From assembly GCF_003367175.1 (NCBI RefSeq), contig NZ_QRGA01000023.1:1-64000 (forward strand): 64,000 nt of DNA, in the 5' to 3' direction. Below the pieces are notes generated by a model. That model saw only the letters and a list, made by a program, of their open reading frames with translations, had not been told where the DNA came from and did no database searches. Shown piece after piece: positions 32,277-33,681 of this stretch. Source of the stretch: Trinickia dinghuensis (GTDB taxonomy: Bacteria; Pseudomonadota; Gammaproteobacteria; Burkholderiales; Burkholderiaceae). Position 1 is the stretch's first letter, and each line of letters opens with the position of its first letter. The position numbers and the translations under genes are program-made.

Positions 32277-33350
32277 TCAATTGCCGCTGCCGCGGGCGAC
32301 ACGCCGCTGCTTGACGCTCTCGGCCAGCCCTTCGAGCACGGCAATGCTTTCGTCCCAGCCGATGCATGCATCCGTGATGCTCTGGCCGTACGTCAGTGCG
32401 CAATCGGGCTGCAAGTCCTGGCGGCCGGCGACGAGATGCGACTCCACCATCACCCCGACGATGCGTTCGTCGCCGCCGGCCACTTGCCGGCCGATGTCCG
32501 CGCAGACGGGAATCTGATTCTCGTGCTTCTTCGAGCTGTTCGCGTGGCTCGCATCGATCATCAAGCGTGCGGCCAGCCCGGCGCGGCCGATGTCGGCGCA
32601 GGCCGCGTCGACGCTTGCCGCATCGTAGTTCGGCGTCTTGCCGCCACGCAGAATCACGTGGCAGTCCTCGTTGCCGGCCGTCGAGACGATGGCCGAATGG
32701 CCGCCCTTGGTGACCGAGAGGAAATGGTGCGGCTGCGAGGCGGCCTTGATCGCATCGACGGCGATCTTGACGTTGCCGTCGGTGCCGTTCTTGAAGCCCA
32801 CCGGGCACGACAACCCGGAAGCCAGCTCGCGGTGCACCTGCGATTCGGTCGTGCGCGCGCCGATCGCCCCCCAGGACACGAGATCGGCGATGTACTGCGG
32901 GCTGATCATGTCGAGGTACTCGGTGCCGGCCGGCAGCCCGATTTCGTTGATGCCGACGAGCAGCTCGCGCGCGGCGCGCAGGCCGTCGTTGATCTTGAAG
33001 CTGTTGTCGAGATACGGGTCGTTGATGAGCCCTTTCCAGCCCACCGTCGTGCGCGGTTTTTCGAAATAGACGCGCATGACGATTTCGAGCTCGCCCGCGA
33101 AGCGCTTGCGCTCATGAACGAGCCGGCTCGCGTATTCGAGCGCCGCCTTCGGATCGTGGATCGAGCAGGGGCCGATGATGACGATGAGGCGATCGTCCAT
33201 GCCGTGCAGGATCCGATGCATCGCACTGCGCGCGCTGTAGATCAGATCGGAAGCGGCTTCGGTGCACGCGAACTCGCGAATCAAGTGCGCGGGCGGCGTG
33301 AGTTCTTTCAACTCGCGGATACGGACGTCATCGGTGTTGTACGGGGGCAT
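32277..33350 (-). CDS. aroG: 3-deoxy-7-phosphoheptulonate (DAHP) synthase, class I AroG type
   Basis: 357 residues from ATG 33350, with AGGAGA 9 bases upstream. Signatures are LIVIIGPCSIHDPKAALEYA, MRVYFEKPRTTVGWKGLIND, GARTTESQVHRELASGLSCP, GFKNGTDGN and MIDASHANSSKKHENQ, which include the phosphoenolpyruvate and metal-binding residues of the AroF/G/H family. It condenses phosphoenolpyruvate and erythrose 4-phosphate, the entry of the shikimate pathway. Which aromatic amino acid inhibits the enzyme cannot be stated from sequence. The gene is preceded by a leader with all parts of a translational attenuator (33451-33575). Confidence 0.95.
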   Translation of the reverse strand: MPPYNTDDVRIRELKELTPPAHLIREFACTEAASDLIYSARSAMHRILHGMDDRLIVIIGPCSIHDPKAALEYASRLVHERKRFAGELEIVMRVYFEKPRTTVGWKGLINDPYLDNSFKINDGLRAARELLVGINEIGLPAGTEYLDMISPQYIADLVSWGAIGARTTESQVHRELASGLSCPVGFKNGTDGNVKIAVDAIKAASQPHHFLSVTKGGHSAIVSTAGNEDCHVILRGGKTPNYDAASVDAACADIGRAGLAARLMIDASHANSSKKHENQIPVCADIGRQVAGGDERIVGVMVESHLVAGRQDLQPDCALTYGQSITDACIGWDESIAVLEGLAESVKQRRVARGSGN

Positions 33351-33392
33351 GCTGCGCTTCTCCTCATCGGGTACGGGGCTCGCCTGCGACCG

Positions 33393-33442: not shown

Positions 33443-33479
33443 AGGCGAAAAAAAACCGCCAGGCTCGCTGGCGGTTTTT
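33443..33479 (-). terminator. Attenuator terminator in the aroG leader (segments 3:4)
   Basis: Read on the minus strand, AAAAACCGCCAG (33479-33468), loop CGAGC, and CTGGCGGTTTTT (33462-33451) form a perfect 12-bp stem. The T run is eight long and continues to 33448, giving a strong intrinsic terminator about 100 bases before the aroG start. It lies downstream of the aroG promoter, so it would stop aroG transcription unless its 5' arm is sequestered. Confidence 0.85.
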
Positions 33480-33539
33480 CGGGAATTCGGGTTTGTGCTT
33501 TACGCGCTAACACCCCTCTCGATCCGCCAGCGGACTGAG
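33466..33539 (-). promoter_or_regulatory. Mutually exclusive pairing segments of the aroG attenuator
   Basis: Segment 1 (CTCAGTCCG, 33539-33531) can pair with CGGATCGAG (33527-33519) around a CTGG loop: eight of nine pairs including one G-U. Segment 2 (CGCTGGCGG, 33532-33524) can instead pair perfectly over 9 bp with segment 3 (CCGCCAGCG, 33474-33466), the 5' arm of the terminator. These structures exclude one another. This is the classical pause / antiterminator / terminator arrangement. Confidence 0.75.
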
Positions 33540-33575
33540 ATGCCAAAAGAAGTAAAAGTAAAACTTCGGCGACAT
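33507..33575 (-). CDS. Aromatic leader peptide of the aroG attenuator
   Basis: A 22-residue ORF, ATG at 33575 and TAG at 33509-33507. It starts MSPK and then reads Phe-Tyr-Phe-Tyr-Phe-Phe-Trp (33563-33543), seven aromatic codons in a row, followed by HLSPLADREGC. In pheA- and trp-type attenuators such codon runs make ribosomes stall when the charged tRNA is scarce. The last part overlaps pairing segments 1 (33539-33531) and 2 (33530-33522). A ribosome stalled on the aromatic run would cover segment 1 and free segment 2. No strong Shine-Dalgarno sequence is visible; that is the weak point. Confidence 0.85.
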   Translation of the reverse strand: MSPKFYFYFFWHLSPLADREGC

Positions 33576-33611
33576 GATCGGGGTGAGGCTCGTTAAAAAG
33601 ATGCGTTCAAC

Positions 33612-33640
33612 TTTATACCCCGGTTAAGCGGGGCCTGCAA
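33612..33640 (-). promoter_or_regulatory. Sigma70-type promoter of aroG
   Basis: On the minus strand TTGCAG (33640-33635), a 17-bp spacer, and TATAAA (33617-33612). Transcription would begin near 33605, about 30 bases before the leader-peptide ATG. The spacer carries CCCCG-CTTAAC-CGGGG, an inverted repeat that could be an additional operator. Confidence 0.7.
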
Positions 33641-33681
33641 GCCATATGCCGTTATAACGCGGAAAACCCGCATAAATCAGA

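Follow-up and report, generated by a model that had tools for sequence, protein, structure and literature searches.

How is the flow of carbon into the aromatic pathway controlled in a member of the Burkholderiaceae? In Trinickia dinghuensis this question arises at aroG, which codes for a class I DAHP synthase, the enzyme of the first step of the shikimate pathway. Its product matched NCBIfam NF006723 (593.5 bits, cut-off 568) and Pfam DAHP_synth_1, and the closest relative among the matches listed was a T. dabaoshanensis protein, 96% identical. A second DAHP synthase of the same genome, 60% identical to AroG, had no aromatic leader within 500 nt upstream. No match to TrpR was detected in this genome, in which a single borderline match to the TyrR-type HTH family (27.1 bits vs 27) was found.

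An earlier note had read the region upstream of aroG as a ribosome-mediated attenuator of the DAHP synthase. We followed up this proposal in the window, that is, the whole stretch of 64,000 nucleotides covering positions 1 to 64,000 of contig NZ_QRGA01000023.1, to which all coordinates refer. The parts of the attenuator are all located on the minus strand. The proposal held up in close relatives, which keep the aromatic codon run and both competing, covarying stems, and we consider it very probable that aroG is preceded by a ribosome-mediated transcription attenuator.

Organization of the aroG leader

Table 1. Features of the aroG leader region of T. dinghuensis (positions in the window)
Feature	Positions	Strand	Basis and remarks
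-35 element TTGCAG	33635..33640	minus	Sequence reading, 16-row alignment; weak
-10 element TATAAA	33612..33617	minus	Sequence reading, 16-row alignment
Leader peptide ORF, MSPKFYFYFFWHLSPLADREGC and stop	33507..33575	minus	ORF translation, kept in relatives; no clear Shine-Dalgarno
Control codons Phe-Tyr-Phe-Tyr-Phe-Phe-Trp	33543..33563	minus	Translation, density, register, genome pattern search
Protector hairpin (1:2), CTCAGTCCG-CTGG-CGGATCGAG	33518..33539	minus	Minimum-energy fold
Antiterminator 5' strand CGCTGGCGG	33524..33532	minus	Reading, alignment, covariation, fold; inside leader ORF
Antiterminator 3' strand CCGCCAGCG	33466..33474	minus	Reading, covariation, fold; overlaps terminator 5' arm
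Intrinsic terminator	33448..33479	minus	12-bp stem, 5-nt loop, T tract 33455-33448; reading, fold, covariation
aroG Shine-Dalgarno GAGGAG	33360..33365	minus	Sequence reading, 16-row alignment
aroG, class I DAHP synthase	32277..33350	minus	NCBIfam and Pfam matches; ATG at 33350

The promoter announced by the earlier note, two boxes separated by a 17-nt spacer, was present base by base. The -35 consensus is TTGACA; the -35 element of the window agrees with it at three of six positions, which explains the absence of this promoter from the output of the consensus promoter scan of the window. In a 16-row alignment of aroG upstream regions, TATAAA was aligned in 14 rows and TTG[CT]CA in 11. TTGC was retained in the window, L003 and L015, whereas L016 and L027 possessed neither form. 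Transcription is expected to start near position 33605. Some 20 nt upstream of the -35 element, at 33659-33671, the palindrome GCGG-N5-CCGC was visible in 13 of the 16 rows (the window and L003-L014); it could be an operator or an upstream part of the promoter.

The leader ORF comprises 22 codons and a stop, and translation bore out the seven consecutive aromatic codons attributed to it. A pattern of six consecutive Phe/Tyr codons had one match in the 7.37-Mb genome, the leader itself, as compared to five matches for the reversed pattern used as a control of composition. Within the window, at least six aromatic residues in nine codons were observed in only two tiles, both lying over the leader.

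The terminator is formed by the arms AAAAACCGCCAG (33479-33468) and CTGGCGGTTTTT (33462-33451) on both sides of the loop CGAGC. It had been described as a perfect 12-bp stem with eight U. The 12 bp were found; however, five of the eight U sit in the stem, and only 7 bp are left without the A-U run. The terminator was missing from the terminator-scan output of the window. The perfect 9-bp antiterminator and the aroG ribosome-binding site downstream of the terminator were present as claimed.

The upstream neighbour of aroG on the same strand is tldD, and position 33448 falls between the two genes, so that the terminator might merely end tldD transcription, the aromatic ORF being accidental. Yet tldD possesses a terminator-like hairpin of its own at 33711-33681, a conserved promoter is located between tldD and the aroG leader, and the aromatic ORF stands in register with the antiterminator and far above background. 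The comparison with relatives described below already contradicts this explanation, whose probability we regard as negligible.

Conservation, covariation and distribution

The relatives were the best 80 of at least 591 aroG candidates obtained in one scan and consequently lean to close kin. The upstream stretch was shortened by a contig end in two of them (187 nt in L028, 58 nt in L058). An aromatic ORF, defined as 6-70 codons with at least five aromatic residues in nine codons and located at most 450 nt upstream of aroG, was found at 51 of these 80 loci, compared to 31 of 1985 other 450-nt tiles from the same loci. With at least six aromatic residues in nine codons the counts were 41 of 80 loci and 4 of 1985 tiles. 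The combination of an ORF with at least four aromatic residues in eight codons and a CCGC[CT] terminator arm was present in 52 of the 80, among which L078 is weak. One additional locus, L030, has the leader and the terminator; it was missed by the pattern and was recovered from the terminator and leader output. Alignment A1 (47 rows) was made of the window and 46 of these 53 loci, leaving out five near copies (L013, L020, L023, L056, L062), L014 with its shifted frame and L078 with its weak run. Since its rows were chosen for the aromatic ORF and the CCGC[CT] arm, A1 gives no measure of how frequently the arm is lacking.

The alignment suggested by the earlier note showed that aromatic codons and covarying stems are conserved upstream of aroG in relatives. 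The leader reads MSAKFYFYFFW[HY]L.PLADREG in Paraburkholderia, Caballeronia and Burkholderia, ..YFYFSNSNPKAVE in Oxalobacteraceae, FYFYFYGFLKPLAEEG in Bordetella, FYFWYYGFPMPLAEEG in Xanthomonas and SYFWYFSYDSSLAAGG in Bradyrhizobium; Mesorhizobium, Devosia and Dyella also carry a leader before aroG. All 47 aligned runs contain Phe and Tyr codons, and 29 contain a Trp codon as well. Codon usage in the leader differed from that of the gene: at ten Burkholderia-clade loci (L003-L012), TTT and TAT made up 49 of the 63 Phe/Tyr codons of the leaders, vs TTC and TAC for 109 of 138 in the aroG genes. In the symbiont Candidatus Burkholderia humilis (L014), the frame was shifted inside the aromatic run and the terminator and antiterminator bases were kept; the sensor may be decaying there. 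Three loci (L125, L127 and L039) showed a divergent short leader ending in ..FWYFTRTSG (stop) or ..FYFWHFTRTGG.., with a similar terminator.

In A1 the antiterminator core, which consists of GGCGG on the ORF side and CCGCC on the side of the terminator arm, was nearly invariant, and at the edges the partners changed together. Paired bases were observed in 80.8% of the antiterminator cells (77.2% in shuffles), with 18 double-change cells (5.7 in shuffles) and a covariation score of 0.110 (0.063 in shuffles); none of 500 shuffles was as high on any of these three measures. The number of pairs with double changes, four, was matched by 157 of 500 shuffles and was not above chance, and the 13 further pair types were matched by 40 of 500. 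Among the ten antiterminator pairs, two were invariant and two varied on one side only. For the terminator, 95.0% of the cells were paired, with 23 double changes and a score of 0.182 vs 0.093, each reached by 0 of 500 shuffles; pairs with double changes were matched by 3 of 500 and pair types by 36 of 500. Slid controls paired in at most 54.9% (antiterminator) and 58.4% (terminator) of the cells. Terminator and antiterminator thus covary on most measures. The protector hairpin behaved differently. Its arms CTC, CCG, CGG and GAG were conserved in the Burkholderia clade in the 16-row alignment, and in A1 only the double changes, one of five measures, were clearly above shuffles (21 vs 11.4, 1 of 500 as high) and no higher than in slid controls. 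With so little covariation support, we rejected the protector as a family-wide element.

The Burkholderia clade keeps the residues PLADREG outside the run, and termination would release an ORF-carrying RNA of about 158 nt, counted from the expected start site. The attenuated RNA or its peptide might therefore also act in trans, for which rnTrpL and peTrpL of Sinorhizobium meliloti provide a precedent in the available portions of two reports (PMC7298713, PMC10117765). However, antiterminator and protector bases can explain the conservation of PLADREG, and the peptide outside the run differs between families. We consider such an additional activity improbable.

The distribution of the leader was uneven. 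Among the best 80 of at least 591 candidates, no aromatic leader was found at the loci of Enterobacterales, Vibrionaceae, Methylotenera and the Rhodocyclus-Thauera-Azoarcus group, nor at L069, the sole Ferrovum locus whose upstream sequence was long enough. A quick tree built from 81 proteins, drawn from the same selection, contained 53 rows with the leader and 28 without by the criteria used. One of the latter, L053, has an aromatic ORF and lacks a terminator of the CCGC[CT] pattern, and some of the 28 sit within or beside the leader-bearing clade. The leader label required seven changes on this tree, whereas shuffled labels needed 23.6 on average and none of 500 shuffles was as low. The leader is clearly grouped with a single part of the aroG tree; given the weak support of its deep forks (77% for the main split), the tree does not separate one origin followed by losses from several gains.

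The covariance model R1 gave one strong match in the T. dinghuensis genome (E 6.6e-20). The next was partial (E 0.037), and copying of the leader to other genes of this genome was rejected, the next matches being weak and partial. R1 matched 245 of 299 genomes of the family (20 of 25 genera) and 43 of 200 genomes drawn from the order (31 of 109 genera). At the level of the class, 27 of 274 genomes matched at E 0.01, but 21 of the 31 matches fell short of the whole model; full-length matches at E of 1.1e-8 or less were found in 5 of 274, own genome included. Built on aroG leaders, many from close kin, the model measures absence poorly. All of the 30 family matches that were checked (own included, out of 245) were located directly upstream of aroG. 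One family genome, G365, had two R1 matches. Of 54 match-less family genomes, 20 were examined, all of them 0.2-2.8 Mb in size: seven had no aroG relative at E 1e-60, two had an aromatic leader missed by R1, and eleven had a leader-less aroG (L122-L124, L126, L128-L134). Loss of the attenuator with genome reduction is possible in this set.

Codon register and the proposed switch

The aromatic run was placed by density alone, independently of the antiterminator, and codons were counted back from the antiterminator core; codons overlapping the core, where TGG occurs in L024, L043, L057 and L073, were not tabulated. Phe, Tyr or Trp was present 7, 8 and 9 codons before the core in 47, 46 and 44 of the 47 rows of A1, respectively, in 23, 25 and 3 rows at codons 6, 5 and 4, and in no row at codons 3, 2 and 1. 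At positions 7-9, 137 of the 141 codons were TTY, TAY or TGG, including 15 TGG. The four others were GCG, CGT, GGC and ACC, and Leu or Cys neighbours such as TTG or TGY, which would be expected from a T-rich stretch free of coding constraint, did not occur.

In the computations, the ribosome was taken to reach 12 nt beyond the first base of its A-site codon. In a snapshot taken before the terminator 3' arm is made, the computed chance of the antiterminator across the 47 sequences was 0.93-0.96 with the ribosome at codons 9-5 before the core, 0.62 at codon 4, 0.01 at codon 3 and 0.00 beyond; in L033 and L048 it never exceeded 0.5 at codons 6-9. From the codon counts and this computed availability together, the aromatic codons end where the ribosome would begin to mask the antiterminator. 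In the window itself, counting A-site codons from the start of the leader, the probability of the antiterminator was 0.98-1.00 at codons 1-11, 0.64 at codon 12, 0.09 at codon 13 and then 0. Without a ribosome it still won (0.99), so that the protector is a weak competitor before the terminator 3' arm and does not predict termination of an untranslated leader.

The whole leader folded into protector and terminator at -54.1 kcal/mol (3 of 200 shuffles as low, z -2.5). The segment 33533-33448, approximately the RNA left free by a ribosome at the Trp codon, adopted the antiterminator as its minimum-energy fold despite the complete terminator (-32.1, 5 of 200 shuffles as low). Nine stall positions were tried with the complete terminator in the window, and the antiterminator was the minimum-energy fold at codons 10 and 11. 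Its pair probability was 0.87 at codon 11 (Trp) and 0.15 at codon 10 (the last Phe), in a run using two more 3' bases than the minimum-energy run. Across the family, equilibrium favoured the terminator in at least 40 of the 47 sequences at every stall position, and the antiterminator in at most 7 at any one position. The switch would thus have to be kinetic in most relatives, and the snapshot was used because equilibrium folding of the complete leader is uninformative for most of them. On these models, the simplest reading is a kinetic switch thrown by any aromatic stall, strongest here at the last Phe and the Trp codons.

We propose the following course of events. The model takes its parts, their conservation and covariation, the codon register and the two exclusive folds from observation and computation, and adds to them the transcription start, leader translation, stalling, read-through and the choice of the amino acids that count. 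The RNA polymerase would start near 33605, and a ribosome would begin to translate the 22-codon leader. With an ample supply of charged aromatic tRNAs, this ribosome would pass over the antiterminator strand inside the ORF, the terminator would form and transcription would stop. Under shortage of an aromatic amino acid, the ribosome would stall on the Phe/Tyr/Trp run. Its leading edge would get no further than 33533, the position reached with the Trp codon in the A site, and because of this limit the antiterminator strand would stay free. A ribosome stalled from codon 9 on would also cover the protector hairpin on its 5' side. Left free, the antiterminator strand would pair with the terminator 5' arm, allowing the polymerase to read through into aroG, whereas the protector would hide this strand when no ribosome stalls.

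The earlier note had also proposed that Phe, Tyr and Trp are sensed together, which is plausible judging from the codons. The same attenuator might instead respond effectively to one amino acid, Phe, or to Phe and Trp, with the remaining codons as passengers or for tuning. At codon 7 before the core, Phe occurs more often than any other residue (33 of 47), Trp is missing from 18 of the 47 runs, and in the window the equilibrium favours the antiterminator only at the Trp codon and, slightly, at the last Phe. The AroR leader of Corynebacterium glutamicum has a Phe-Tyr-Phe run and, as far as the available part of the report goes, answers to Phe and not to Tyr (PMC11802643); joint sensing is consequently plausible but unproven. 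On the other hand, the snapshot leaves the antiterminator free at every A-site codon from 1 to 11, so that a stall at any aromatic codon could count, and Phe and Tyr, which every one of the 47 runs contains, replace each other at positions 7-9 as though one aromatic residue were as good as another. We give the single-amino-acid explanation a real chance, clearly below even.

The absence of a clear Shine-Dalgarno sequence before the leader ATG, noted earlier as a weak point, was common to most of the family and not a defect of the window copy. In A1, 13 of the 47 leaders had no Shine-Dalgarno-like match, 28 had one of 3 nt and 6 one of 4 nt, and these counts are generous owing to the weak edges of the test string (L035 has a real GGAG). 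At the start of the aroG match, 28 of 47 rows showed a Shine-Dalgarno-like match of at least 4 nt. A -10-like hexamer ending 7-14 nt before the leader ATG, from which the transcript would start at or near the AUG, was detected in 14 alphaproteobacterial and Xanthomonadales loci, with a mean score of 3.95 compared to -0.73 in shuffles (0 of 1000 as high). A mixed group of nine scored 4.76 vs 0.33 (0 of 1000 as high), with the exception of L034 and L035; all lineage groups of this analysis were drawn after -10-like boxes had been noticed. A hexamer elsewhere scored better in L048, L064, L051 and L077. The near-ATG site was not above shuffles in the Burkholderia clade (13 loci) and the Oxalobacteraceae (10 usable of 11), where the -10 element was located 26-48 nt upstream in most rows. 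The leader thus looks leaderless in several lineages. In five alphaproteobacterial loci (L050, L057, L063, L073, L075), GTGACA was found together with a TATATG, TACAAA or TATACA box ending 7-11 nt before the leader ATG, and the leader RNA of these loci is probably leaderless.

A further reading would be a single RNA element co-inherited with a clade of class I DAHP synthases of beta-, gamma- and alphaproteobacteria. The antiterminator would be freed whenever the ribosome stalls at one of the aromatic codons within a stretch of fixed position. The element would in this way act as an OR gate for charged tRNA-Phe, tRNA-Tyr and tRNA-Trp, and would replace the enteric TyrR/TrpR control at the entry of the shikimate pathway. 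Its leader ORF would be started without a Shine-Dalgarno sequence, on a leaderless RNA in several lineages. We put forward this combined reading tentatively, with a likelihood that comes close to an even chance and stays just short of it.

Comparison with known systems

The search of Rfam 15 recommended by the earlier note returned no family at the gathering threshold in the whole window, and seven sub-threshold leader or small RNA matches by E-value. Phe_leader RF01859 (15.5 bits, E 5.4, gathering 55) and Leu_leader RF00512 (19.5 bits, E 0.11, gathering 50) both scored below their thresholds. No recognised description of a proteobacterial aroG attenuator was found in the open literature searched, and an older prediction may exist. 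The main text of Naville and Gautheret 2010 does not contain aroG, aroF, aroH, shikimate, DAHP, phenylalanine or aromatic. We take the gene name aroAIalpha_Y to be that of a DAHP synthase. Predicted attenuators of tyrA-linked operons, including Vibrio aroAIalpha_Y > tyrA, are tabulated in PMC1173090. The aroG element appears to be a new instance, and a widespread version, of the known mechanism of ribosome-mediated attenuation. For Burkholderiaceae and many further proteobacteria, it provides a testable explanation of how the flow of carbon is controlled at the entrance to the aromatic pathway. Rfam would gain a widespread element that it now lacks. The leader also constitutes a natural setting for comparing three tRNAs within a single stall window, the codon register of which evolution has already mapped.

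Leaders whose codons cover more than one end product of a shared pathway are known from ilvGMEDA and thrABC, so joint sensing would not be a first; they differ from the aroG leader by their branched-chain or Thr/Ile codons and by the genes controlled. The pheA (pheL) and pheST leaders of Escherichia coli are leader-peptide attenuators with a Phe-rich run and the same overall order of parts, but they control pheA or pheST and sense Phe only. The AroR leader of C. glutamicum aroF was reportedly described by Neshat et al. in 2014. From the accessible portions of the publications, it is the closest in its target, a leader with Phe and Tyr codons placed before a DAHP synthase gene and acting by ribosome-mediated attenuation (PMC11802643, PMC7356990, PMC4046766). 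This likeness is one of description; AroR belongs to an actinobacterium, no Trp codon is mentioned in these portions for its Phe-Tyr-Phe run, and the availability of Tyr is reported to be irrelevant (PMC11802643).

The trp leaders of E. coli and S. meliloti (rnTrpL/peTrpL) share with the aroG leader the stalling on aromatic codons and differ by sensing Trp only, before trp genes. In trp leaders the choice is made between 2:3 and 3:4 pairing, and the stop codon of the E. coli leader lies before segment 2, whereas the antiterminator strand of aroG lies inside the ORF. According to the part of the report at hand, S. meliloti trpL has a leaderless leader ORF (PMC10117765), resembling in this respect the aroG leaders predicted in alphaproteobacteria.
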